A stretch of DNA of 64,000 nt from Armatimonadota bacterium (GTDB lineage Bacteria > Sysuimicrobiota > Sysuimicrobiia > Sysuimicrobiales > Humicultoraceae). The translations under genes and the position numbers were made by a program. The notes beneath the pieces are model-generated. The model was given only the letters and a program-made list of their open reading frames with translations. It was not told the origin of the DNA and did no database searches. This document shows, piece by piece, positions 7,947 through 63,595 of this stretch (its first letter is position 1; each line of letters begins with the position of its first letter). The stretch is from assembly GCA_031459855.1 (NCBI GenBank), contig JAVKHP010000001.1, forward strand, positions 974,059 to 1,038,058. The letters run 5' to 3'.

Positions 7947-9141
7947 CGCCGCTCGCACTGCCGCTCCGCCCATCGTGCACTGCACGCGCAGGCCCCCCAC
8001 GGGTACGGGCGCGCTGCTGCCACGCCAGCAACGACGGTGCTTCTCCACGTACGAGGTCGAGGAAAAACCGCTCGTGGGCGTCCGCGGCCATCTCCCACGT
8101 GTAGTGTTGCCGCACGCGCTCTACCGCCAGGGCACCGTACCGCGCCGCAAGCTCCGGATTCGCCAACAAGCGGCGCATCTTGTCCCGTAGGTCCTCCTCC
8201 GACTTCTTCCAGAGCAGTCCCGCGTCGCCTACCACCTCCGCGTTGAACGGACGGTCGAATACGAGGACGCAGGCGCCACATCCCATGGCCCTGAGGAGTC
8301 CAGGACTCGTGCCGCCGACCTCGTGTCCGTCGATGTACGCGAACGCGTACCGCAGCAGGGTATCTACGTGCCCGGGGCGATACACGGGCCCTGTAAAGAC
8401 CACCCGCGGATCCTTGGTGCGCCGCAGCCGACGAACGTAGCGACTCCGATAGTTCACCCCGCCGACCACGACCAGACGCTTCGAGGTCTCCACTCCTTCG
8501 AATGCGCGCACGATCAGGTCGACGTTGTTCTCGGGCTCAATACGGCACACCACGAGGAAATAGCCGCCCGGAGTCAACCCGTACTCTTCGAGAATGCTCG
8601 CGGCGACCGGCGGGAGCACGTACGCGCCCCAGCTCAGGTAGTGCGCCTCGACGCCGAACTCCCGCCGGATGTACTCACAGATCGCCCGCGAGTCGGACGT
8701 CACGCGTGTAGCCAGCCGTAGCGCCGCCCAGAAAGAGAACCGCAGGTACGTCCTAACCACAGCGCCCCACTTTCGCCTGAGCCAGTCTAGACCGTTGGTG
8801 TTGAACACGACCCGCTTGCCGGCGAGTCGATGCAGCACGTAGCACCAGCTCGTGCGACAGCACAGGACGTAGTACACGTCGAACGGCTGCACCAGCGAAT
8901 GCAACGCGGACACGACCTCGTGCGACGGGCTCTCCAGGTACTTGCCGGGCAGGTACGGTGTATAGACGAGCCTGACGGACCGGTACTCTCGCGGACGCGA
9001 GGGATCGGAGTAGCGCGCCCGGCAATAGACAGTCACCTCGTGGCCCCTGGCTGCAAGCCGTGTCGCGAGTTCTTCGCTCACCACCTCCGCGCCGCCCCAG
9101 CGGGCAGGGATGCCACGTGACCCGAGGATCGCAATACGCAT
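7936..9141 (-). CDS. DUF1972/GT4 glycosyltransferase (rhamnosyltransferase-like)
   Basis: 401 residues. The N-terminus MRIAILGSRGIPARWGGAE is the DUF1972 signature found in WchF/RgpA-type rhamnosyltransferases, and the C-terminal half has GT4 features (VCRIEPENNVDLIVRAFE, VGGTSPGLLRAMGCGACVL). It fits transfer of a deoxyhexose onto the lipid-linked sugar. A 56-bp gap separates it from the nucleotidyltransferase upstream. The last ~30 residues are Arg/Gly-rich and overlap the next gene's start. Confidence 0.82.
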   Translation of the reverse strand: MRIAILGSRGIPARWGGAEVVSEELATRLAARGHEVTVYCRARYSDPSRPREYRSVRLVYTPYLPGKYLESPSHEVVSALHSLVQPFDVYYVLCCRTSWCYVLHRLAGKRVVFNTNGLDWLRRKWGAVVRTYLRFSFWAALRLATRVTSDSRAICEYIRREFGVEAHYLSWGAYVLPPVAASILEEYGLTPGGYFLVVCRIEPENNVDLIVRAFEGVETSKRLVVVGGVNYRSRYVRRLRRTKDPRVVFTGPVYRPGHVDTLLRYAFAYIDGHEVGGTSPGLLRAMGCGACVLVFDRPFNAEVVGDAGLLWKKSEEDLRDKMRRLLANPELAARYGALAVERVRQHYTWEMAADAHERFFLDLVRGEAPSLLAWQQRARTRGGPARAVHDGRSGSASGDAR

Positions 9142-9197
9142 CTATACCTCCCTTCGAACGCTCGTCGCCGCGGGCGGGACGGCGCAACGCCAGCGGC

Positions 9198-10397
9198 TCA
9201 TTCCGCCATCGGCGTCGTGCGCGGCGCGTGGTGGCCATCAAGGCTTCTCCACAGCACTCGCAACACCGCCGGCAGCACGGCGCCTACGAGCAACAACCGG
9301 CGACCACGGCTCAGAGCGCCAGGCCCTTCCGGGTCGAGTTTCTCCGGCCACAACGTGCGCTGCACCAGCAGTTTCGGAATACGGCCCGCATCATCGACCA
9401 CGACGTACGGAGCCAGCCAGGCTACTTCCCGTCCCCCGTCCTGGAACTGCTCCAGTGCCGCCATCATCGCTACCGACCATTGCACCCGACGGATGTAGCC
9501 CTCCGGTCTGACGTCAGCCGCCACGGGTGCCGGAAGGGCCACGCCGAAGAGGGCCGATACCACGTACAGGGCGGAGCGCGCCAGCGCTCCCATCCGCCAT
9601 GCATCCGCTCGACGGAACACGTCGCCCCAGTCGATGGCGTGACTCCACCGCGATGCGAGGAACGCCACGTCCACGAGCAGTCGAACCGCCCAGTGATGGT
9701 GCCCTAGCTGCATGGCCGTCAGCAGCAGTTGATCGTGCACCGCTGGCACCCGTATCACGCACCCGGCTACGTCCACCGCCACCGATCGCGCACGAATCCC
9801 CTCCACGTCAGGCGTGATGCGGCGCACCTGGTCCACCAGGTCGAAATGGACCTCTACCGCCGTGACCAGACCGCCCGCCGAGCCCACATACCGCAGGTGG
9901 TAGGGATGCGCGGCGCTCGCCGGCCCCTCGTACCCCATCTCTTGCAGCACTGCACTCACGTCGTCCACGTCACCGCGGCGAACCAGGATATCCACGTCGT
10001 CGAACAACCGCACGTTCACGCCTACCCCAAAGTGCGCCAACCCCGGGCCCTTCAAAACCAGCGGGACAACGCCCCTGCGCGCGAGCTGCGCGTTGATTTC
10101 GCGGAGCCGATGGAGGAGCGCCAGATTCCGCCCCACGGCAAAGTAGTACTGATGGCGCAACCACTCAACGACGTCCCCGGGCAGCACACCTGCGAACCGG
10201 CGCAGCCGGTCATAGACCAATGGCGCCAGCATCACGCGGTGGGCGTGTGCACAGAACGACACCCAGTCCACGCGCCGGGCCAACCGCTCGACGTGATCAG
10301 GGGCGAGCTGCGCCGATGGCCGGAGGACCTCCATCAACAAATTGCCTGGACCCCCTGCCATGGGCGTCGGCAGGACCTCCCCGACCCGAGCTACCAC
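9198..10397 (-). CDS. Nucleotidyltransferase family protein (NTP_transf_5-like)
   Basis: 399 residues. The central block VPLVLKGPGLAHFGVGVNVRLFDDVDILVRR contains the G-x-D-x-D type acidic pair (DDVDILV) of nucleotidyltransferases, and an upstream QYYFAVGRNLALLHRLREI segment is typical of the PF14907-type family. Members occur beside lasso peptide kinases (PadeN-like) and in exopolysaccharide clusters. Here it sits within the polysaccharide operon, about 7 kb from the lasso genes at the window start, so either link is possible. Substrate unknown. Confidence 0.7.
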   Translation of the reverse strand: MVARVGEVLPTPMAGGPGNLLMEVLRPSAQLAPDHVERLARRVDWVSFCAHAHRVMLAPLVYDRLRRFAGVLPGDVVEWLRHQYYFAVGRNLALLHRLREINAQLARRGVVPLVLKGPGLAHFGVGVNVRLFDDVDILVRRGDVDDVSAVLQEMGYEGPASAAHPYHLRYVGSAGGLVTAVEVHFDLVDQVRRITPDVEGIRARSVAVDVAGCVIRVPAVHDQLLLTAMQLGHHHWAVRLLVDVAFLASRWSHAIDWGDVFRRADAWRMGALARSALYVVSALFGVALPAPVAADVRPEGYIRRVQWSVAMMAALEQFQDGGREVAWLAPYVVVDDAGRIPKLLVQRTLWPEKLDPEGPGALSRGRRLLLVGAVLPAVLRVLWRSLDGHHAPRTTPMAE

Positions 10398-10437: not shown

Positions 10438-11859
10438 TCACCCAGGGCTCTCGCGCCCCGGCGCCCCGTGCGTGACGTCTCCCTCTCCGACCGGTACCAT
10501 CTGCGTCACGCGCCGCACGAGACCCACCAGCGTCCAAAAGTAGAGCTGGTTGGCGGTCTGGCCGATCACGTGGTCGGTCAGACCGATCACAGGATACGCC
10601 AGGGCGACACCCAGCAAACCCAGGGCCACCGCCTTCAGTGCCGGTTCGCGTGACATCCGCCAGCCGGTGTAGGCCAGACGCACCACCACACCGATCAGGA
10701 CAAGGTAGAGCGCGAGACCGAAGATCCCGTACTCCACCAGTAGTGCCAGGTAGTCGTTGTGCGCTCCGAACGGAATGCCGCGCACCGGTGCGGTAATGGT
10801 CCCCACGGCTCCTGGGCCGAGCCCCACGAGCCGATTCAGCGCCACCGACACGCTGTTTTGCTCCGCAGCGGTGATCTCTACCCAACGCTCCATGGTCGCC
10901 TGCCACAGGAGCACGCGATCGGCAAAACTGCCGCCAAACGGATCGGCCAGCCTTGCAGCAATCTCCGGGACGCGTACTGCGACCACGGCCGCCACCGGCA
11001 GCGCGGCAAGCAGCAGCGGGCGCCGCAGCAACCCGATCACGCCCACCACGATGAGCGCTCCCACCCATGCTATGCGCGTGAACGTCATGCCCAGCAACGT
11101 GCTGCAGATCATCACGACGCCCCACGCCATCCACCGACTCCACCCCGTCAGGCTCACAGCCCGGGCCAGGAAGACACTCAGGATCAGCACCAGGTAGATC
11201 GCGAACGCGTTGGGATGTGCAAACGTTCCGGACACTCGGAAGAGCCCCAGTTCCGGGACGGCGAAGTACGCACCACCGGTCCACTGCAGGAAGGCGACCG
11301 CCGCAGGCGCGACGAGCGACGCCGCGAAGATCCCCACGACCCTTGTGATCTCTCGTCGCGTCTGGAACTGGGACGCCGCCAGGCCGTACGCCACGAACGC
11401 CGCGACGATCGGCAGCCATTCGGCCAGCCCGGAGAGCATCCTCCCCGAACGCAACACGCCGACGAAGCCGGTCACCGCCAGGAACGTGAGCAGGATGCCC
11501 CCGGGAAGGCGTACGAGAGGGAGATGTCGTCGAAGGAGAAACCCACCCCCGGCCAGTACCAGCACGGACACGAGCGCCGCGTTGGGCAGTGCCGCCAGGC
11601 GCACAGGCTCCGCTGCCGGGTTGTCGGGAAGCAGAACATAGCCGATGTCCGTAGCCGTGCGAACGACCAGCGTGAACAGCAGCCCCAGATCCGGTCGCTG
11701 CAGAAAGCCTGCCAGGAAGAGCACGGCCAGTGCCCCGCCCAGCGTCACGGTCAGAGGGGCGCGCATGATCAGGGCTGCCAGCCCGAGTCCCAGCAGCACC
11801 AGCAGGAGCGTCTGTACACCCAGCGCCGCGGCAGTGCTTCGAGAACTCACCGTGGCCAT
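10438..11859 (-). CDS. Wzy-type O-antigen/exopolysaccharide polymerase (O-antigen ligase-like)
   Basis: 473 residues from the ATG at 11859, which follows a GGAGGGG Shine-Dalgarno. About twelve hydrophobic segments are visible, with a large outer loop containing TMERWVEITAAEQNSVSVAL and the Wzy_C family signature GPGAVGTITAPVRGIPFGAHNDYLALLVE, where H-N-D-Y is characteristic. It should link repeat units on the outer face of the membrane after Wzx flips them. It lies between the nucleotidyltransferase and a GT2 gene in the same direction. Confidence 0.83.
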   Translation of the reverse strand: MATVSSRSTAAALGVQTLLLVLLGLGLAALIMRAPLTVTLGGALAVLFLAGFLQRPDLGLLFTLVVRTATDIGYVLLPDNPAAEPVRLAALPNAALVSVLVLAGGGFLLRRHLPLVRLPGGILLTFLAVTGFVGVLRSGRMLSGLAEWLPIVAAFVAYGLAASQFQTRREITRVVGIFAASLVAPAAVAFLQWTGGAYFAVPELGLFRVSGTFAHPNAFAIYLVLILSVFLARAVSLTGWSRWMAWGVVMICSTLLGMTFTRIAWVGALIVVGVIGLLRRPLLLAALPVAAVVAVRVPEIAARLADPFGGSFADRVLLWQATMERWVEITAAEQNSVSVALNRLVGLGPGAVGTITAPVRGIPFGAHNDYLALLVEYGIFGLALYLVLIGVVVRLAYTGWRMSREPALKAVALGLLGVALAYPVIGLTDHVIGQTANQLYFWTLVGLVRRVTQMVPVGEGDVTHGAPGRESPG

Positions 11860-31976: not shown

Positions 31977-32930
31977 GTGGTAGCCATCGTGGGACGGGCA
32001 CTCATTTCCGGCGGAGCCGGTTTCATCGGTTCCCACCTGTGCGAGGCGCTGGTGGCTGCGGGATGGCACGTCACCGCCCTGGACGACCTCAGCACCGGAC
32101 GTCGCGCCAACATCGCCTCGCTCCTGGCACACCCTCGCTTCACCTTTGTTGAAGGCGACGTTCGGATGCCGGTTGCCTGGACCGGCGACGTCATCTTCCA
32201 TTTGGCGAGTCCGGCCAGTCCCGCGGCCTACGCCCGGGCGCGCGTAGAAACCCTGACCACCAACGCCCAGGGGACCCTGCGAATGCTGGAACTCGCCAGG
32301 CGAACCGGCGCTCGCCTAGTCCTGGCGTCGACGTCGGAGGTTTATGGCGACCCGGAGGAACACCCGCAGCGTGAGACCTATCCGGGCCGCGTCGATCCGA
32401 CCGGTCCCCGGTCCTGCTACGACGAGGGCAAACGCTACGCCGAGGCGCTCGTCGCAGCCGCGGTACACGAGTGGGGTATCGACGCACGGATCGCCCGGAT
32501 CTTCAACACCTACGGTCCGCGGATGCGCCCGGACGATGGACGTGTGGTCGTCACGTTCGTCACCGCGCTCCTGGAGGGCCGGCCACTGCGCATCTTCGGG
32601 GACGGCCTCCAGACCCGGAGTTTGTGCTACATCGACGACATGGTCCGAGGGTTGGTCCGGCTAGCCGAGGTTCCCGGGCTGGCGGGTGAAGCGATCAACT
32701 TGGGGAACCCGGACGAGCGCACGGTACTGCAAATCGCCGAGGCGGTGCAGCGTGTGGCAGGGCGCACGGCGCGCCTGGTGCACCTCCCGCCGCAACCGGG
32801 CGATCCGCAACGCCGCTGTCCCGACATCACGAAAGCCCGGCGCCTGTTGGAGTGGTCGCCGGAAGTTCCGCTGGAAGACGGCCTCAGGCGTACTTGGCAG
32901 TGGTACGAAGCCCACGTCGCGGTCTCATGA
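31977..32930 (+). CDS. uxs: UDP-glucuronate decarboxylase (UDP-xylose synthase)
   Basis: 317 residues from the GTG at 31977 with AAGGAG 8 nt upstream. Extended SDR: ISGGAGFIGSHLCEAL, DDLSTGRRANI and the UXS-specific block SEVYGDPEEHPQ followed by GPRSCYDEGKRYAEAL, which holds the catalytic Tyr-x3-Lys. It converts UDP-glucuronate, made by the divergent ugd, to UDP-xylose. Its stop overlaps the next start (ATGA). Confidence 0.92.
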   Translation: MVAIVGRALISGGAGFIGSHLCEALVAAGWHVTALDDLSTGRRANIASLLAHPRFTFVEGDVRMPVAWTGDVIFHLASPASPAAYARARVETLTTNAQGTLRMLELARRTGARLVLASTSEVYGDPEEHPQRETYPGRVDPTGPRSCYDEGKRYAEALVAAAVHEWGIDARIARIFNTYGPRMRPDDGRVVVTFVTALLEGRPLRIFGDGLQTRSLCYIDDMVRGLVRLAEVPGLAGEAINLGNPDERTVLQIAEAVQRVAGRTARLVHLPPQPGDPQRRCPDITKARRLLEWSPEVPLEDGLRRTWQWYEAHVAVS

Positions 32931-34513
32931 CGTGCCTCGAACGGCTCGTCACCTGGCTGCTAGTGTCGATTGGCCTGCTAGCGCTGGTCCACTTCTTCGC
33001 GTGGTGGACCACGCCGGGGCACGTGGCCAGCCTGCCGCTGTTCATCCTCTTCACGGCCGCCGCGTGGTTCTCGGCGTTTCGCATGTTCGCCAACTGGTTC
33101 GCCCTCCTGCACGTCGAGCGTCCTGCCCATCGGCCCCCGCCGCCCGGATGGACGGTGGACGTCATGACCACCGCGGCGCCGGGAGAACCACTGGCGTTGT
33201 TCGAAACGACGCTGCCTGCGCTGGTCAACCTCCGCTACCCCCACAGGACGTATCTGCTGGACGACAGCGGCCGCGAGGAACTCCGGCGATTGTGCGAGGC
33301 GCTCGGGGTCCACTACCTTCGTCGCCCGCACCCCGGAACAGGAGGCAAGGCCAGCAACGTCAACTACGGCCTCGCCCACACCACCGGCGAGTTCGTCGCC
33401 ATCTTCGACCCCGACCACGTGCCGGTCCCCGAGTTCCTGGACAGGGTCCTCGGCTACTTCACCGACCCCCGCGTCGGCTACGTCCAAGCCCCGCAGGTCT
33501 ACCACAACGAACACGAGACGGCGGTGGCCCGGGGCGCCGCAGAGCAGACCTACGAACTCTACGGGCCCACCATGATGGGGCTCCACGGCCTGGAGGCCCC
33601 CCTGGTGTTCGGCTGCCATACCACCTTCCGGCGCACCGCCCTCGAGTCCATCGGGGGCTACGCCGTGCACAACGCCGAGGACCTGCGCACCGCCATGCGC
33701 CTAACGGCCGCCGGCTGGAAGGGCGTCTACGTACCGGAGGTGTTGGCCCGAGGACTGGCGCCAGCCGATCTTGCTACCTTTTTCCGTCAGCAGTTCCGGT
33801 GGGCCCACAGCGTGTGCGACCTCTTCTTCCGTGACTTCTGGCGGCTGCTGCCCCGCTGGAATGTGTTCCAGGCCGTCACCTTCTTCATGGTGGGCACCTA
33901 CTACTTCGTCGGACCGGCCATCCTGGTGAACCTCCTCCTGCCGCCCTTCCTGCTGTTCGCAGGCGTGCGCGGCGTCGCGGACACCGCCGCGTCCTTCCTG
34001 ACCCATCTGGGCCCCCTGGTGGCGTGCAACTTGGTCATCCGACGGTGGGGCCAGCGGTACCTGCTGCGGGCTGAGGAGCGCGGCTGGCATCCGCTCGGCA
34101 TGGTGCTGTTGTTCGCAAGCGCCTTCGTACACACCGCAGGCCTGGTGGCAGCCCTGATCGGCGTCCGGGTACCCTATCTGGTGACGTACAAGACGCGCCA
34201 GCCCAGCGGACTGCGTCACGTGCGCCTCCACCTACTGGTGGGTACGGTTTCCATAGCGGCGGTGCTGCACGCCTTCGTCACCGCGCAACCCGATGCCGCC
34301 ATGTTGGAACTCCTGGCTCTGTGGAACACCGCCATGATGGGAGCCGCGGTCTGGATCGCCCTGGAGGAGGAAACGTATTACCGGCGACAGCGCGCAAGCT
34401 CGCCGCGCGGAGAGGGGACTGGCGTGCATGCGGCGCCACTGGAAGACCGTTCGCCTGCTGCTGCTGGCCGGCTGGCTGCTGGTTCTGTGGTGGGGCGGGC
34501 GCTGGAGCGTTGA
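32927..34513 (+). CDS. Cellulose-synthase-like GT2 polysaccharide synthase
   Basis: 528 residues. There are two N-terminal membrane segments, then the GT2 domain with YLLDDSGRE, the DxD-type FDPDHVPVP, a TED-like HNAEDLRTA and the Q-x-x-R-W motif FFRQQFRWAHS. At least four C-terminal membrane segments follow. This is the BcsA/CslA processive layout without a PilZ domain. It polymerises a beta-linked chain and extrudes it. The start overlaps the UXS stop (ATGA). The tail overlaps the GH26-like gene by 86 bp. Confidence 0.88.
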   Translation: MTCLERLVTWLLVSIGLLALVHFFAWWTTPGHVASLPLFILFTAAAWFSAFRMFANWFALLHVERPAHRPPPPGWTVDVMTTAAPGEPLALFETTLPALVNLRYPHRTYLLDDSGREELRRLCEALGVHYLRRPHPGTGGKASNVNYGLAHTTGEFVAIFDPDHVPVPEFLDRVLGYFTDPRVGYVQAPQVYHNEHETAVARGAAEQTYELYGPTMMGLHGLEAPLVFGCHTTFRRTALESIGGYAVHNAEDLRTAMRLTAAGWKGVYVPEVLARGLAPADLATFFRQQFRWAHSVCDLFFRDFWRLLPRWNVFQAVTFFMVGTYYFVGPAILVNLLLPPFLLFAGVRGVADTAASFLTHLGPLVACNLVIRRWGQRYLLRAEERGWHPLGMVLLFASAFVHTAGLVAALIGVRVPYLVTYKTRQPSGLRHVRLHLLVGTVSIAAVLHAFVTAQPDAAMLELLALWNTAMMGAAVWIALEEETYYRRQRASSPRGEGTGVHAAPLEDRSPAAAGRLAAGSVVGRALER

Positions 34514-35489
34514 GCGCCTCGCGGCCGCGGCCCTGCGATGGCGCCCCGCGCCACCAGCACCGTTCTCCCTGGACGACCTTCGCCGCCCGCCCCAGGGCTG
34601 CTACCTGGGCATCTACATGCCGTTCGTTCCGCAGGAGATGCAGCCGCTCAAGACGCTGGAACGCCGGGTGGGCCGGGGCTTCACGATGATCAGCCTGTAC
34701 CAGGCCTGGGGGAGCCGTAGGGAACAGCAGTTCGACCCGGCTCCGCTCAACCGCATCCTGGCGCACGGTGCCGTACCGGTCCTCACATGGGAACCCTGGG
34801 TAACGGACTTCGAGGGATACGGGCTCCCGCCGATGCCAGATCGGCAGTTCCGTAACCTGCAAGCGATCGCCCGGGGCGACTACGACTTCTACCTGCGACG
34901 CTGGGCGCGCGATGCGCGCCGGTGGGGCCGTCCGCTGCTGATCCGCCTGGGGCACGAGATGAACGCCACCTGGTATCCGTGGGGGGAACGCGCGTACGGC
35001 AACACCGCACAGGACTACGTCGCCATGTGGCGTCACGTGGTCGAAGTCTTTCGGCAGGAAGGCGCCACCAACGTCCTCTGGGTCTGGTCGATCGCCCAGC
35101 GACCGTTCCAGGGTCTCTACCCTGGCGCTGGATGGGTCGACTGGGTAGGCGTCACGGTGCTGAACTTCGGGACCGTGCCCCCTGGCTGGCGATGGCGATC
35201 GTTCCCGGAGCTCTTCCGGCCGCTCTACCGGGAACTGGCACCGTTGGGCAAGCCGATCATGATCGCCGAGGTCGGGTCGGCTGAAGACGGCGGTGACAAG
35301 GCTGCGTGGGTATGGGAAGCCATGACGTCGCTCAAGACCGAGTTTGCGGCCGTGCGCGCGTTCATGTGGTTCAACAACGCGCAGGACATCTACTGGCCCA
35401 TCAACTGGTCACTGACGTCGTCGCCCGGCGTGGTCCAGGCGTTCCGCCGCGCCGCAGCGGATCCGTACTTCATCGCCCCGCCGCGGTGA
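34428..35489 (+). CDS. Membrane-anchored GH26-like glycoside hydrolase
   Basis: 353 residues. An N-terminal membrane anchor (LLLLAGWLLVLWWGG) is followed by a TIM-barrel domain. The acid/base Glu lies in LIRLGHEMNATWYPWG and the nucleophile Glu in IMIAEVGSAED, as in GH26 beta-mannanases and related enzymes. It is co-transcribed with the synthase, the arrangement of BcsZ-like hydrolases that trim a nascent chain. The start is taken at 34428 behind a GGAGAGGGG site. Confidence 0.8.
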   Translation: MRRHWKTVRLLLLAGWLLVLWWGGRWSVERLAAAALRWRPAPPAPFSLDDLRRPPQGCYLGIYMPFVPQEMQPLKTLERRVGRGFTMISLYQAWGSRREQQFDPAPLNRILAHGAVPVLTWEPWVTDFEGYGLPPMPDRQFRNLQAIARGDYDFYLRRWARDARRWGRPLLIRLGHEMNATWYPWGERAYGNTAQDYVAMWRHVVEVFRQEGATNVLWVWSIAQRPFQGLYPGAGWVDWVGVTVLNFGTVPPGWRWRSFPELFRPLYRELAPLGKPIMIAEVGSAEDGGDKAAWVWEAMTSLKTEFAAVRAFMWFNNAQDIYWPINWSLTSSPGVVQAFRRAAADPYFIAPPR

Positions 35490-35597: not shown

Positions 35598-36971
35598 CTA
35601 GGGCGTCCGGGGCGCGTCGTACACACCGAAGGTGACACTGCCGGTGCTGACCCACCGATCGTCCCGCGTGGTGACATACACGTACAACCGGTAGATCCCG
35701 GGGGTGCCCGGACTCTCCAGCGTGACCTGCGGCAGGTCGGACGTGAACTGCGCGGTCACGTGCGTCATGGTGACGGGGGCGATCAGGTACGTGTACCGGT
35801 ACCGGGCAGGATCCAGTGCCGGGAGTAACCGCGTTTGCACGATGAACGACTCCTCGGGCCGCATCCAACGCTTGTAGAGGACCACCGCAGCGACGACGGG
35901 CCGTCCGGACGGCGCCGGCTGACCCGTCCATGCCTCCCGCAGCGCCCAGTACGCCGGCTTGAGCCGATCGCGGGAGTCGGTCAGGCCGAACCACGTGAAC
36001 GATCCCTCGTGTTTGTCCTTCCACGTAAACGCGTTGCCTCCCAGGTTCCACCCTCGGTAGGCCACCACGTACTGCTGCCAGTTCGCGGCGTACGCCCTGG
36101 CCTTGACGACGTCGGAGGGTTCGACCGGCTGTCCCAGGTCGTCCACAACTCGATGCGGTAACCAGTACCCCGGCGGCCCGAACTCGGCCACGAGGTACGG
36201 TCGTCCGATCTGTGCGCGCATGACCGTGGCGTGCAGATTGCTGATGTCTTGCTCGAAGTAGCTGTTCACACCAAAGACGTCCGCGGCCGGGACGAGACGG
36301 CGAAACATCGCCAGCGAGGCCCCCAGACCCAGGTGCTCGGGCTCGTCGGGTGCGTGTTCGTCCACCACCATAACGGGATGGGCAGGATCCAACGCCTTCA
36401 CCAGCAGGGCAAGGTCGTTCACAAACCTGTAGAACGCCTCGCGCTGCGGAAACAGCTCGTGCGCCCGCGGGTACGTCTTCTTCAGCAAACCCCACGTTTC
36501 ATTCCCCAGCGCCCACATGAGCACCGCAGGATGTCGCCGGAACCGCAGCACCCACTCCTGGACGCGCCGCCGGTACATATCCAGACGCCGCTGATCCCGC
36601 AGGTAGTCGACGTCGTGGTCCAACCAGAACCCCAGGATGACCATCAGCCCGTGGTCACGCGCTGCGTCGAGAATGGCCGGGAGATCGTCCGTGTAGCCGT
36701 AACGCCGAATCGTGTTGGCCCCCAGGGCGCGGATGCGCCGGAGGTGCACAGCGAGCCGGGTGGGCGTCAGGGGCTCGCTGGGGTCGTCGGGGTCCTCGTT
36801 GAGCGAGAATGAAACACCCTGCACGTACCACGGACGTCCATCGACTTCAAGCCGGTAGGCTCCTGGCGTTCCCGTGACGCGCACCGTCCGCTCCACGAGC
36901 GGTCCGGCGGTCACAAGCACCGTGCTTGCGATGACCAGCCAGGCAGGAATCACCCGCAGCGACACACGCAC
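35598..36971 (-). CDS. GH2-like TIM-barrel glycoside hydrolase with C-terminal beta domain
   Basis: 457 residues from the GTG at 36971, 6 nt after AAGGA. A signal or anchor segment (VIPAWLVIASTVLVTAG) is followed by an alpha/beta barrel with acid/base Glu in LMWALGNETWG and nucleophile in YLVAEFGPPGYW, the arrangement of GH2 C-terminal barrels. A ~90-residue beta-rich C-terminus follows. The gene starts 66 bp after the GH39-like gene and is probably in the same transcript behind the cyclic-di-GMP riboswitch. Confidence 0.8.
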   Translation of the reverse strand: MRVSLRVIPAWLVIASTVLVTAGPLVERTVRVTGTPGAYRLEVDGRPWYVQGVSFSLNEDPDDPSEPLTPTRLAVHLRRIRALGANTIRRYGYTDDLPAILDAARDHGLMVILGFWLDHDVDYLRDQRRLDMYRRRVQEWVLRFRRHPAVLMWALGNETWGLLKKTYPRAHELFPQREAFYRFVNDLALLVKALDPAHPVMVVDEHAPDEPEHLGLGASLAMFRRLVPAADVFGVNSYFEQDISNLHATVMRAQIGRPYLVAEFGPPGYWLPHRVVDDLGQPVEPSDVVKARAYAANWQQYVVAYRGWNLGGNAFTWKDKHEGSFTWFGLTDSRDRLKPAYWALREAWTGQPAPSGRPVVAAVVLYKRWMRPEESFIVQTRLLPALDPARYRYTYLIAPVTMTHVTAQFTSDLPQVTLESPGTPGIYRLYVYVTTRDDRWVSTGSVTFGVYDAPRTP

Positions 36972-37037
36972 ACTGTGTCCTTCCACGCTAGGAGCGATCG
37001 GCCCTCCCGGGCCGCGCGCCGCCGTGCGCGATGGGAC

Positions 37038-38240
37038 CTACGGGTACACGACGTTGGAGGCTGTCAGGCGTCGCGCCAGCGCCTGGAACGCGTAGTACGC
37101 GGGTTTTCCGCGGAAATCGTGCCACACCAGGCCGTAGTTGTGCTCGACATTGGTAGGGTCAGTACCCTTGTCGCGCAGGTTGTACCACATGGCCACCTCG
37201 ACGAACGGGTACTCCCGCTGAATCTTCTCGTAGGCCCGCGTCAGGTACGTGGCTTGGGTCTCTACCGAGACCCCTTCCGCCCAGTCGCCCACCGCGGCGG
37301 GTGCGCGCCGGTGGGTCGGCCATGACATCTCGGTGATCCAGATCGGCTTGTGGCCGTCGCCATGGGCAACCATCACACGCCGCAGTTCGGCGATGCCGTG
37401 GAACGAATGGCGCACGTCGGGATGCACCTCGTCCGGCGCCCGGCGGAACACGTACGGATGCACTCCTAGCGCGTCGAAGTAGCGTCCGGCTCCCAGGGCA
37501 TACATCTGCCGGAGGTAGTCCACGTTGTTCCCCGCGAGCCCGCCGGAAATGAACACCGCCTGTGGATCCGCAGCTTTCCCCCGCACGTACGCCTCGGCCA
37601 GCATCTCCACGAACCGCCCAACGTTCGGCACGGGGCGCCAGAAGACATACCAGTCGGGTTCGTTCCAGATCTCCCAGTGCCGTACCCGACCGCGCAGCCG
37701 CCGGACCGCGTATTCCACGAACTCCCCCAGGTCGCGCATCCGCAGGGGCGGGGCATCCCACCCCAGCGGATTCGCCCACGGCGGCGTGGCCAGTACCAAC
37801 AGCATGACGCGCAGTCCCGCTTCCTGCAGACGCGCCAGCAAATCCTCCAAACTGCGGAAGTACGCTTCGTTGTACCGCCCCTTCTCCGGCTCCGCCACGT
37901 ACCAGTTGAGCACGATGCGCACCCACTCGACTCCCGCGTCGCGCATCAACGCGATCTCACGCTGCTGCACGGCAGTGGGCGCATCCGGCTGCAGGTCGCT
38001 CTGGACCCCGAACCCCACACGGCGCACTGGATGCGCCGCCCGGTCGGAAAGTGCGTCTCGATCTCGTGCGATAGCAGAGAACTTCACTGCAACCTCAAGC
38101 GACCCATCCGAGCTCCCGAATGCCTGTGCCGACGGGAGCCTCGCGTCACCCGCCCAGAAGGCGCCGCACAACGCTATCGCAACGGCTGCGATCAGGACGG
38201 CTGCTTTGCCCAGGAGCCTGACGCGAAGCGACCCGACCAC
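37038..38240 (-). CDS. GH39/GH5-like (clan A) glycoside hydrolase, riboswitch-controlled
   Basis: 400 residues. An N-terminal hydrophobic segment (AAVLIAAVAIALCGAFWAG) is a signal or anchor. The barrel has the acid/base in HWEIWNEPDWYVFW and the nucleophile in IWITEMSWPT, the clan A pattern of GH39. An earlier in-frame start at 38279 lies inside the riboswitch aptamer, so translation must start downstream. GTG at 38240 has AAGGGAG 8 nt upstream and that SD overlaps the aptamer end. It probably cleaves the polymer made by the nearby GT2 synthase. Confidence 0.82.
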   Translation of the reverse strand: MVGSLRVRLLGKAAVLIAAVAIALCGAFWAGDARLPSAQAFGSSDGSLEVAVKFSAIARDRDALSDRAAHPVRRVGFGVQSDLQPDAPTAVQQREIALMRDAGVEWVRIVLNWYVAEPEKGRYNEAYFRSLEDLLARLQEAGLRVMLLVLATPPWANPLGWDAPPLRMRDLGEFVEYAVRRLRGRVRHWEIWNEPDWYVFWRPVPNVGRFVEMLAEAYVRGKAADPQAVFISGGLAGNNVDYLRQMYALGAGRYFDALGVHPYVFRRAPDEVHPDVRHSFHGIAELRRVMVAHGDGHKPIWITEMSWPTHRRAPAAVGDWAEGVSVETQATYLTRAYEKIQREYPFVEVAMWYNLRDKGTDPTNVEHNYGLVWHDFRGKPAYYAFQALARRLTASNVVYP

Positions 38241-38245
38241 GTGCC

Positions 38246-38331
38246 CAACTCCCTTCGGCAGCCCGACCGACCGTGGCACGGTCTCGCGGCTTTGCGTCCC
38301 TGCCTCGCGGCAGGTTTGCCTTTGTCGGGGA
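38246..38331 (-). ncRNA. Cyclic-di-GMP-I (GEMM-I) riboswitch
   Basis: On the minus strand the conserved GEMM-I elements occur in order. GACAAAGGCAAACC is at 38313-38326. A P2 hairpin TGCC-GCGA-GGCA with a GNRA loop follows. GGGACGCAAAGCC is at 38288-38300. A P3 hairpin GACCG-TGCCA-CGGTC is next, then GGTCGGGCTGCCGA at 38256-38269. The 3' side continues AAGGGAG, the Shine-Dalgarno of the hydrolase gene at 38240. A CUCCC upstream (about 38328-38332) can pair with that GGGAG. This suggests ligand binding hides the ribosome site. Confidence 0.92.
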
Positions 38332-38334
38332 GCG

Positions 38335-38670
38335 GCGTGCCGGTCGCCCCAGCTGCCCGGAGCACAGCTCGCGCCGCACCCTGTCCACCGGGGTTATGCC
38401 CGTCGCCTGGGCGGACCAGACCTGCGAGATCTCGAAGTTTTGGAAGAACTTCACCGGAAGATCACTACCACGAGCCCGCCGGGTCGACGGTCGCCGAGGC
38501 CTGGGTCAACCGCCGATCAACGACCAGGATCGCGAAGGTCGACGTCAGCGACAAACAGAGCCGACACCGATCCCTCGGGCATGCGGACGCCGCGCCTGCC
38601 GGCTCTAGAGGCGCCTCTGCGCCACCCTGGCCGTCATCGGCGACGGATCACGGAATACGCGTTCGTGGCT
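38335..38670. other. Intergenic segment upstream of riboswitch and trxB
   Basis: About 335 bp that probably holds the promoter of the hydrolase transcript (minus) and sequences upstream of trxB (plus). An inverted repeat GAAGTT-TTGGAAG-AACTTC lies at about 38434-38452. An open frame (38273-38608, plus, 111 residues) is Arg-rich, overlaps the aptamer on the other strand and shows no family, so I do not call it. Confidence 0.3.
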
Positions 38671-59526: not shown

Positions 59527-59562
59527 TCGTCAGCAGACTCGACGTTGAGAAAGGAGTCTACT

Positions 59563-60906
59563 GTGTCCGTCGACGCTTCTCCCACTACCCTCTGGCGCGA
59601 CGCCTTGCGACAGATCGAGGGCCAGCTCAACAAACCCACGCTGGAATCATTCTTGAAAATCATGCGGCCCCTCGACCTTCGCGACAACGTCTTCACCCTC
59701 GCCGTCCCCAACCGATTCGCGAAGGAATGGGTCGAGCAACGCCTTCTCACGATGATCCGTACCGCCCTCGTCGCATCCCTCGGTCGTGACATCGCAGTCC
59801 AGGTTGTGATCGCCGAACCTCCTGCCCTTCCTACCGTTCGACCAACCCTACCTACCACCGTACCGCGACCCGAAGGGCTTCACCTGTCCCCCAAGTACAC
59901 GTTCGAAACGTTCGTAGTAGGCGCCGGCAACCGCTTTGCACACGCCGCGGCACTCGCCGTTGCCGAAGCCCCTGCCCGCGCTTACAATCCCCTCTTCATC
60001 TACGGCGGCGTCGGTTTAGGCAAGACCCACCTCTTACAGGCGATCGGTCACCGCGTACTGCACAACGTCGGCGTCGCACGCGTTGCGTACGTCAGCAGCG
60101 AAAAGTTCACCAACGAACTCATCAACGCAATTCGCGACGACAAAACCGTCGATTTCCGCAATCGTTACCGCAATGTCGATGTCCTCCTCATTGACGACAT
60201 CCAGTTCCTCGCCGGCAAAGAGCGTACCCAGGAAGAGTTCTTTCACACCTTCAACACTCTTCACGATGCCAACCGACAGATCATCATTACGTCCGACCGT
60301 CCACCGAAAGAAATCCCCACGCTAGAAGATCGTCTGCGCAGTCGGTTTGAATGGGGTCTCATCGCCGACATTCAACCACCCGATCTCGAAACACGCATTG
60401 CCATCCTCAAAAAGAAAGCCGAAACCGACGGTATTACGGTACCCGACGACGTTGCGGAATTCATCGCCCAACGCATCAATACCAACATCCGCGAACTCGA
60501 AGGTGCACTCGTACGCGTTGTCGCCTACGCTTCGCTCACTCGCTCACCGATCACCGTAGAATTAGCAACCGACGTCCTGCGTGACCTTCTGCCACCTGTA
60601 CGAGTGCGTACCCTGACGATCGCAACGATCCAGCAGGCCGTGGCTGAATTCTTCGGCATCCGTCCGGAGGAGATGCGCGCCAAACGCCGTACCAAAGGCA
60701 TCGCCTTCCCGCGTCAGGTCGCTATGTACCTGGCGCGGGAACTTACTGACGCGTCGCTTCCCCACATCGGCCAGGAGTTCGGCGGACGGGACCACACCAC
60801 GGTCATGCACGCCTGCCAACGAGTCCGGGAAGTACTGCAGCGCGATGTGCACCTGGCCGCCAGCCTCAAACGTCTTGTGGAGACCCTGCAACGACGAGGC
60901 GCATAA
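59563..60906 (+). CDS. dnaA: Chromosomal replication initiator DnaA
   Basis: 447 residues from the GTG at 59563, 6 nt after AAAGGAG (an in-frame TTG at 59545 overlaps that site). Domain I begins [20 protein letters not shown]. Walker A is [15 protein letters not shown], Walker [21 protein letters not shown], and the domain IV signature [15 protein letters not shown]. The linker domain II is short (~30 residues). Codon use is less GC-rich than the surrounding genes. Confidence 0.97.
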
Positions 60907-61138
60907 GCTGTGAACAGTCCTGTCTCTCCTTTTCCCGTGAGCACCTCTGCTCGTTCTGTGCCGGTATCTTTCCACAGACGAACCCAATATTCGTCCACCG
61001 TGCTCTACAGCAGCGCGTCAAGACCTACGGGGTGTGTGCTCAACTGTCCACAGTGTCCTCAACCTGTACTACTATGACGGTTTTGATGTACGCTAGATAG
61101 TACAAGCACTCGCGGACTTCCACGGAGGATACGTACTA
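60907..61138. other. dnaA-dnaN spacer with DnaA boxes and DnaA-trio-like element
   Basis: 232 bp. DnaA-box-like TCTTTCCACA (60967-60976) and CTGTCCACA (61044-61052) are present. Fourteen bp after the second box comes TACTACTATGAC (61067-61078), which resembles the DnaA-trio array that loads DnaA on single strands in B. subtilis. GGAGG for dnaN is at 61124-61128. A second functional origin part is likely here. Confidence 0.6.
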
Positions 61139-62248
61139 ATGCTGTTTACTTGCGAGCACAAACATTTGAGTAGGGCCGTAGCGCTGGTAGGGCGAGCTGT
61201 CTCTGTGCGTACAGCGATGCCCATTTTGGCGAACATTCTTCTGGAGACCCAGAAAGGCGCAGTGAAACTTATCGCCACCGATTTGGACCACGGCATTCAG
61301 ACAACGATTCCAGCTACGGTGACGCACGGTGGAGCAGTTACATTGCCTGCTCGTTTATTGAGTGAGATCGTCACCAACCTTCCGGATGCACCAGTGCAAA
61401 TTCGCGCAAGCGACAGCAGTCGGGAGGTGGAGATTCAGTGTGAACGGGTAACTTATGCACTGGTGGGAATGCCGGCGAGTGATTTTCCGATCGTGCCCGA
61501 ACCGACCGTAGCGACAACGGTGTCGGTTGACGCAGGAACGTTACGCAGTATGATGCGACAGACGGCGTTCGCCGTATCGACCGATGAGACCCGGGTATTC
61601 CTAACGGGATTGTACCTGGTGCTGGAAGCTGCGGAGATGCGGCTGGTTGCCACTGATGGTGGCCGTCTCGCCCTACGAACGACACGGTTGGCAACACCGG
61701 TCGTACAGAACGTGGGGATCATCGTGCCAGCGCGAACAATGAACGAGCTCAACAGAGCGTTGGCGGGGTTCGAAGGGTTGGTGGAGATCGCTGTCGCTGA
61801 GAACCAAGTAGCGTTTGCGTTTGCCGATACGCGGGTGGTAAGCCGCTTAATTCCGGGACCGTTTCCGAACTACCAGCAAGTAATTCCACAAGGGCACAAA
61901 CAACGCATTGTGGTGGCAACTGATGCGTTGCTTGGTGCGGTACGGCGTGTAGCAGTCACAGCGAGGGATTCAGCGAACGTAGTGCGTGTGGTAGCGCAAG
62001 GTGACAGACTTACGTTGTCCTCTCATACGCCCGAGTATGGAAGGGCCGAGGAGATATTGGAAGTGCGAACCGAAGGGGAAACGGTGCCGACAGCGTTCAA
62101 TGCGCGGTATTTAATGGAGTGCTTGGCCGTGGTGGAAGCGGCGGAAGTAGCGTTAGAACTCACGGGGTCGTTGAGTCCGGGAGCAGTGCGCCCGGTAGGA
62201 CAGCCGGAGTACGTGTACGTGTTGGCACCGGTGCGTGTCGCGAGTTGA
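61139..62248 (+). CDS. dnaN: DNA polymerase III beta sliding clamp
   Basis: 369 residues from the ATG at 61139, 10 nt after GGAGG. Three clamp domains with HLSRAVALVGRAVSVRTAMP at the start and the end RPVGQPEYVYVLAPVRV. Full length. It is the processivity ring of the replicase. Confidence 0.96.
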   Translation: MLFTCEHKHLSRAVALVGRAVSVRTAMPILANILLETQKGAVKLIATDLDHGIQTTIPATVTHGGAVTLPARLLSEIVTNLPDAPVQIRASDSSREVEIQCERVTYALVGMPASDFPIVPEPTVATTVSVDAGTLRSMMRQTAFAVSTDETRVFLTGLYLVLEAAEMRLVATDGGRLALRTTRLATPVVQNVGIIVPARTMNELNRALAGFEGLVEIAVAENQVAFAFADTRVVSRLIPGPFPNYQQVIPQGHKQRIVVATDALLGAVRRVAVTARDSANVVRVVAQGDRLTLSSHTPEYGRAEEILEVRTEGETVPTAFNARYLMECLAVVEAAEVALELTGSLSPGAVRPVGQPEYVYVLAPVRVAS

Positions 62249-62255
62249 ACGGTTG

Positions 62256-62453
62256 GTGCAAGTTGCCGCAGACAGCATTGTACAGGGTGCGTTGTCAAAG
62301 TTGATGAGTGTCACGGCGACAGGAGGAAGCGAAGGCGCTGACATGTAGTGGTGCGGTGCGAGTCAAAAGGACGGTTTATGTCGTCGTGAATGGCGAATGT
62401 TTCTCGGCGGTGACGTGGTGGAACTCGTCGGGTACAAACGTGTGATGCGGTGA
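62256..62453 (+). pseudogene. Broken S4-domain gene (RlbA/YaaA-like) between dnaN and recF
   Basis: This is the slot of yaaA/rlbA in B. subtilis. One frame gives a start like SIVQGALSKLMSVTATGG (matching the I-LGQFLKLA-SGG opening). A +1 frame then gives EAKALTCSGAVRVKRTVY (G-EAK---G-VRVNG). The first frame resumes with RREWRMFLGGDVVELVGYKR (RRGRKL-GDVVE). No single frame is open: one has TAG at 62346. The final TGA overlaps the recF ATG (TGATG). It is either a pseudogene with two frameshifts or an indel-prone read region. Read by eye only. Confidence 0.5.
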
Positions 62454-63595
62454 TGGCCGTGACATGCAACGTACGTCGGCTAGCGTTGCGGGATTTCCGC
62501 AACCATGCGCGAACGGACCTTGAGCTGCAGGACGGACTCACGATCTTCGTGGGTGGCAACGGACAGGGAAAGTCGAACCTTCTTGAGGCGTTGTACGTTG
62601 TCGCGACAGGGCGTTCCTATCGCACCACGCGGGATGCGGAGATGATCGCCCATGGCGCACATCTGGCACGAGTGCATGCGGTGGTGATCCGTCGCGGCGG
62701 TCGGGAAGAAGAGCAGGAAGCACTCATCAGTCGTCATGGTGAAACGGGATCCGTGCGCTTGCGCGTGAGTGGTGTTGAAACGCCCCGCAGCCGGGTCTTG
62801 GGACGGGTGCCGGTCGTCGTGGCGGCGCCGTGGGATCTCGACGTCGTACGGGGCGCGGCGGTATTGCGTAGGCGTCTGTTGGACGCGGCGCTGGCGCAAA
62901 CGAGTCCGGCGTACTTTTTCGCACTGCATCGGTATTATCGGGTACTTGCGCAGCGGAACGCCGTGTTACGGCAGCGGAGTGGTGCGCACTTCGAACCGTG
63001 GGAAGCACAGATGGTCACCCTCGGTGCGCGTATCACGGCGCGACGCCGCACTTATGTGGAACGACTCAACGCACGGGCGGCCGAGTGGTTCCGGCATCTC
63101 GGTGGCGTAGGACGTCTCGAAGTGCGGTATCGGCCGTCATGGACGGGTGCGTCGGAAGAGGAAGTTGCGGTTGTGGCCAGGGAAGAACTCCGCCGGCGTC
63201 GTGCCGATGAAATACGACGGGGAAGCACGTTGTCGGGGCCCCAGCGCGACGAAGTGGAGTTCGTGCTGGACGGCGTGCCGTTGCGCAGCACAGGGTCGCT
63301 GGGGCAATGGCGCCTGGCGATGCTAGCCGTACGGTGCGCCGAACGTGAGGTCGTGGAAGCGGAGCTGGGGACGCGGCCGCTGTTGCTGCTCGATGACGTG
63401 CTGGCGGAGCTGGATGACGCGCGTCAACAGCGGGTCTTGCAGTTGACCGGGACGGGTCAGGTGCTGGTGACCATGACGGTGCTTCCGTCGGAACCACGGG
63501 GGGTCGAGTTGGTCAGGGCAGGAATGCGCGTGTTGAACGTCTCGGGCGGAACTGTCGGGGAGGGGGTATGGTCGCACCGATCCGCGACGTCCTAG
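62453..63595 (+). CDS. recF: DNA replication and repair protein RecF
   Basis: 380 residues; ATG at 62453 (a GTG one codon earlier is equal). Walker A GGNGQGKSNLLEAL, signature LSGPQRDEVEFVLDG and Walker B LLLLDDVLAELDDARQQ. It loads RecA at single-strand gaps. It overlaps the next gene by 28 bp. Confidence 0.94.
   Translation: MAVTCNVRRLALRDFRNHARTDLELQDGLTIFVGGNGQGKSNLLEALYVVATGRSYRTTRDAEMIAHGAHLARVHAVVIRRGGREEEQEALISRHGETGSVRLRVSGVETPRSRVLGRVPVVVAAPWDLDVVRGAAVLRRRLLDAALAQTSPAYFFALHRYYRVLAQRNAVLRQRSGAHFEPWEAQMVTLGARITARRRTYVERLNARAAEWFRHLGGVGRLEVRYRPSWTGASEEEVAVVAREELRRRRADEIRRGSTLSGPQRDEVEFVLDGVPLRSTGSLGQWRLAMLAVRCAEREVVEAELGTRPLLLLDDVLAELDDARQQRVLQLTGTGQVLVTMTVLPSEPRGVELVRAGMRVLNVSGGTVGEGVWSHRSATS

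Follow-up and report, generated by a model that had tools for sequence, protein, structure and literature searches.

A cyclic di-GMP class I riboswitch that probably represses translation of a PslG-like hydrolase gene in an Armatimonadota bacterium

Introduction

Vc2, a GEMM-I riboswitch of Vibrio cholerae, is a translational OFF switch in which the stability of helix P1 decides the state of the RNA (PMC9262584). The class I cyclic di-GMP (c-di-GMP) switches of C. difficile turn expression off by termination, and others turn it on (PMC6366702). Class I thus includes switches of either sign, the direction is not transferable between species, and each case calls for its own testing (PMC6366702). 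Chitinase genes of Aeromonas have been named as class I targets, and hydrolase targets are therefore not new in kind (PMC6366702). In Pseudomonas, PslG is co-transcribed with synthesis genes (PMC10218432), so dispersal need not be the role of a PslG-type enzyme. The RNA class considered here is well known; what seems to be new is a recurrent link between the riboswitch and PslG.

We analysed a 64 kb stretch of DNA (hereafter the window), together with related genomes, following an earlier note made from the letters alone, which had proposed a c-di-GMP riboswitch overlapping the ribosome site of a hydrolase gene.

Results and Discussion

Aptamer and expected ligand

The locus carries a canonical, well conserved c-di-GMP class I aptamer. 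Rfam cmscan, with E-values covering both strands against all 4227 families, matched RF03167 (c-di-GMP-I-GGC) at 38253-38329 on the minus strand with 69.0 bits (E 3e-14) over the full length of the model (1-80 of 80), and RF01051 (c-di-GMP-I) at the same position with 66.1 bits. The aptamer was above both gathering cut-offs (59 and 35 bits, respectively), far above chance level, and was the single Rfam match in the whole window to reach a gathering score. A custom covariance model, R1, built from aptamers of the order to which the source genome belongs, gave 90.1 bits at 38250-38331 on the minus strand, and the riboswitch search returned zero matches in 14 control genomes. The earlier note had placed a GEMM-I aptamer on this strand and had named the Rfam cyclic-di-GMP-I model as the check; the RF01051 match bore out both coordinates and strand.

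Pocket positions are given as 20, 47 and 92 in Vc2 numbering, as assigned by us. By alignment columns, the window RNA has the canonical G20/A47/C92 pocket, and among 80 aligned aptamers of the order, A47 and C92 were each present in 80/80 and G20 in 79/80. The higher score of RF03167 over RF01051 (69 vs 66 bits) could mean that the aptamer is a c-di-GMP-I-GGC variant, or that it senses 3'3'-cGAMP instead of c-di-GMP. By score the RNA belongs to RF03167 (69.0 vs 59 bits), but position 47, a conserved G in the family consensus (GGGACGCGAAG), is A in the window (GGGACGCAAAG), and position 20 is G, the change of which to A (G20A) turns GEMM-I towards cGAMP (PMC6274999). With A47 and C92 in every aligned member of the order as well, we regard a GGC variant or a cGAMP sensor as extremely improbable, and both readings were rejected on A47 and G20. 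Given A47, G20 and C92 in the window RNA, the '-GGC' label reflects the score, and the ligand to expect is c-di-GMP, in what the sequence indicates to be an ordinary c-di-GMP-type pocket. RF03167 also outscored RF01051 on members of the order without G47, making score-based GGC annotation unreliable here; scoring can give this label to RNAs whose pocket is of the ordinary c-di-GMP type, and this would mislead annotation across the whole order.

The source genome contains 7 GGDEF, 8 HD-GYP and 1 PilZ matches and no EAL match. As GGDEF and HD-GYP genes are present, it can make c-di-GMP and probably also degrade it.

Sister aptamers in the genome

Seven aptamers were found in the genome, the window copy included, all on the minus strand of the contig (G000:C1), with which a both-strand pattern search concurred. 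The sisters precede a SigB/F-like sigma factor, a kinase-receiver-GGDEF protein, two pseudopilin clusters and an unknown protein, and one lies about 1 kb before znuA. At L015, of two riboswitches 2 kb apart (8804-8878 and 10871-10957), one lies before the sigma factor, with a terminator, and the other before a protein without a Pfam match. The copy at L016 (10020-10094), with a strong terminator before the kinase-receiver-GGDEF gene (7973-9415), likely provides feedback on c-di-GMP synthesis. The copy at L017 (8951-9033) has terminator-like and antiterminator-like segments, with no clear gene between it and znuA. The copies at 1933678 and 1941223 (L018, 6679-6759 and 14224-14301) stand directly before the two pseudopilin (GspH / N-methylation) clusters, and the one at 1933678 has the same layout as the window copy, with the Shine-Dalgarno (SD) sequence in P1.

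Closing helix, ribosome site and start codon

The 5' strand of P1 is CUCCC (38328-38332, minus strand), an anti-SD sequence, and its complementary 3' strand, GGGAG (38249-38253, minus strand), is itself the SD, 8 nt before a GTG start at 38238-38240. Read along the minus strand, the end of the aptamer runs GCCGAA-GGGAG-UUGGGCAC-GUG, so that the closing stem described in the earlier note does contain the ribosome site, an imperfect SD of 4-5 matching nt. An open reading frame from a GTG at 38279 (37038-38279) exists, but that start lies inside the aptamer and was rejected; the longer frame arises by mechanical extension, which carries it into the aptamer. With the start at 38240 the protein has 400 residues and an intact signal peptide, and in L087, G002, G008 and G009 the homologous protein begins 12-13 nt past the aptamer's CCGAA. 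Aptamer overlap, signal peptide and these four relatives agree with the correction from 38279 to 38240 proposed earlier.

The design is kept among relatives. In L087, a second species with a protein 82% identical, aptamer, P1, SD and start are all retained; in G002, G008 and G009 (62-64% identical) the layout is kept while P1 is changed to GCCCCU/AGGGGC, with an ATG 12 nt after CCGAA. All five PslG-like leaders have the SD within P1, the helix that the ligand would stabilise, and a GTG or ATG 12-13 nt past CCGAA; the letters of both P1 strands vary among them. Across the order, 20 of 79 distinct aptamers had an SD-like sequence in the 3' strand of P1, along with a start codon whose frame stays open, compared with a mean of 3.1% (maximum 9%) for the same test at shifted positions. 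Because of this excess, placing the SD in P1 is a lineage habit rather than a coincidence at this locus, and for reporters it offers a compact translational platform made of a single helix. Several relatives (L029, L039, L047, L051 and L170) have c-di-GMP-I aptamers in closely spaced groups of two or three.

Hydrolase genes and their neighbourhood

The gene starting at GTG 38240 (37038-38240, minus strand) encodes a secreted PslG-like glycoside hydrolase, with a signal peptide and a phmmer match to PslG (5bx9, E 7e-17). Both catalytic glutamates align with those of PslG, Glu194 in WEIWNEP and Glu304 in IWITEM, and the NEP and TE motifs are kept in 8 riboswitch-linked homologues. The GH39-like identity proposed earlier was thereby sharpened to that of a PslG homologue with a conserved catalytic pair, for which exopolysaccharide cleavage is the putative activity; the enzyme would presumably cut the cell's own matrix polymer. 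After a 51 nt gap follows a GH158-like hydrolase gene (35598-36986, minus strand; phmmer 9oro GH158, E 8e-30), the second gene of a probable operon, and L087 has the same order of PslG-like and then GH158-like genes. Second PslG-like copies, each with one in-frame TAG, were observed after the riboswitch-controlled one at G002:C15:58239-59234 and G009:C27:2081-3118.

In the earlier note, the polymer cut here was also taken to be the product of the neighbouring GT2 synthase, a part of the reading that is less well supported. A GT2 gene does adjoin (32852-34513, plus strand), cellulose-synthase-like by a score below the NCBIfam cut-off, but it belongs to a separate, convergent operon on the opposite strand (31977-35489, plus strand), in which Pfam and NCBIfam indicated a sugar epimerase, the GT2 and a GH26-like gene of its own. 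The two hydrolase genes and this operon are neighbours of a large polysaccharide cluster, and they may act on one polymer. At 59545-63595, dnaA-like and recF-like genes, recognised from their protein starts only, indicate that the window's right end probably holds the replication origin.

Proposed switch

Our analysis makes it probable that a canonical c-di-GMP class I riboswitch represses translation of the PslG-like hydrolase and, probably, of the GH158-like hydrolase. Without c-di-GMP, the P1 5' strand could pair with the adjoining upstream leader, so that the SD GGGAG stays accessible; with c-di-GMP bound, the aptamer would lock P1 (CUCCC/GGGAG) and bury the SD, and the helix could extend outwards over the GTG. 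High c-di-GMP would then mean low hydrolase production, the GH158-like gene being co-repressed, probably via a shared transcript. In each of the five closely related leaders the 3' strand of P1 is the SD itself, so a ligand-stabilised P1 must bury it. An ON switch, in which the ligand opens the translation start and the hydrolase rises with c-di-GMP as if it took part in polymer synthesis like Pseudomonas PslG, would have parallels in the opposite-sign class I switches of V. cholerae (PMC6366702) and in the co-transcription of PslG with psl synthesis genes (PMC10218432), but the same position of the SD in these five leaders argues against it, and we consider it unlikely. The window switch is thus most likely a translational OFF switch; comparison of the leaders' anatomy supports the direction predicted earlier, with hydrolase translation shut at high c-di-GMP. 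The GGDEF and HD-GYP genes of the genome and the terminator-free minus-strand leader count for repression, while the 4-5 nt SD match counts against it, as do two of the folding results below: an anti-P1 barely above shuffles and a P1 formed without ligand in L087.

A candidate anti-P1 strand, GGGUGCGGCG (38372-38381, minus strand), could pair with CGCCGCUCCC (38328-38337) and free the SD without ligand; it is predicted from ensemble folding, was weak in a shuffle test (7-8%) and is invariant in L087. Ensemble folding of the five leaders put the P1 state and the ligand-free state a few kcal/mol apart at most, and the ligand-free fold favoured anti-P1 in 4/5 leaders (window, G002, G008 and G009) at most 3' ends beyond about 15 nt past the start, while in L087 P1 was predicted to form even without ligand. 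The strength of anti-P1 was only slightly unusual against GC-rich shuffles (5-17%). A short hairpin, GGGGCGAC/GCCGCUCC, was dropped as the anti-P1 because folding preferred the longer pairing; neither was strong against shuffles. An outer stem of six pairs may join CGACCG (38341-38346, minus strand) to UGGUCG (38234-38239, minus strand), the latter overlapping the GTG start, and thereby close across the start codon. In L087 the stem reads UGGCCG/UGGCCA, with two compensatory changes, whereas 1.4% of 20,000 randomised substitution sets gave two or more. These two sequences, window and L087, are suggestive of a stem covering the start codon. Further upstream, CATAAC (38393-38398, minus strand), a possible but weak promoter -10 element, is conserved in L087; a consensus promoter scan of this leader found no promoter there.

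Control could instead be mainly transcriptional, through a hidden terminator or Rho, with SD masking secondary. Clear terminators do occur at same-genome sister aptamers, at least those of the sigma factor and GGDEF genes, and a PslG-like leader outside the order has one with a T run (L089, below). On the minus strand of the window, however, no terminator was found between aptamer and start, where the gap is only 13 nt; a terminator was rejected for this copy, and mainly transcriptional control is very unlikely.

The riboswitch-PslG link beyond the order

About 110 loci encoding PslG homologues were scanned with the covariance model from the order's aptamers. Further riboswitches, confirmed with Rfam, were found directly upstream of PslG-like genes in two further actinobacterial groups, at L089, an actinomycete MAG, and at L106 and L129, MAGs of Actinomycetota and Acidimicrobiales. 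The PslG-like proteins of these loci share 31-37% identity with that of the window, are secreted and have both glutamates. By eye, the terminator of L089 stands before the gene, while in L106 and L129 the SD lies about 45 nt downstream, where a hairpin can sequester it. Because the platforms differ on the same target class, the comparison suggests more than one origin or rebuilding of the riboswitch-PslG link. On a broader reading, PslG-type matrix hydrolases of unrelated bacteria have repeatedly come under c-di-GMP-I riboswitches, with the SD in P1, a terminator or a distant SD hairpin as the platform, amounting to a direct RNA-level rule by which high c-di-GMP spares the matrix; we hold the chances of this to be evenly balanced. 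By titles and abstracts, the papers searched for pslG together with riboswitches gave no report of such control, and to that extent the pairing in several bacterial lineages seems undescribed. It offers a testable link, without a protein regulator, from a biofilm second messenger to enzymes of a known biofilm-dispersing type.

Comparison with known systems

The aptamer is indistinguishable from GEMM-I (RF01051) in its full covariance match, its G20/A47/C92 pocket and its P1, P2 and P3 architecture; what differs is that P1 itself would serve as the expression platform. RF03167 is the best-scoring Rfam model for this RNA, yet its consensus has G47 where the window has A47. The window switch resembles Vc2 in its predicted translational control and in the part given to P1, the stability of which governs Vc2 (PMC9262584). 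Vc2, to go by the title of Inuzuka 2018 as cited in PMC9262584, masks a ribosome site at some distance from its aptamer, whereas the window SD lies inside P1. The hydrolase shares with PslG (GH39) of Pseudomonas aeruginosa a homologous catalytic domain, both aligned catalytic glutamates and secretion; PslG stands in the psl operon, with no riboswitch described, whereas the window gene is led by a riboswitch.
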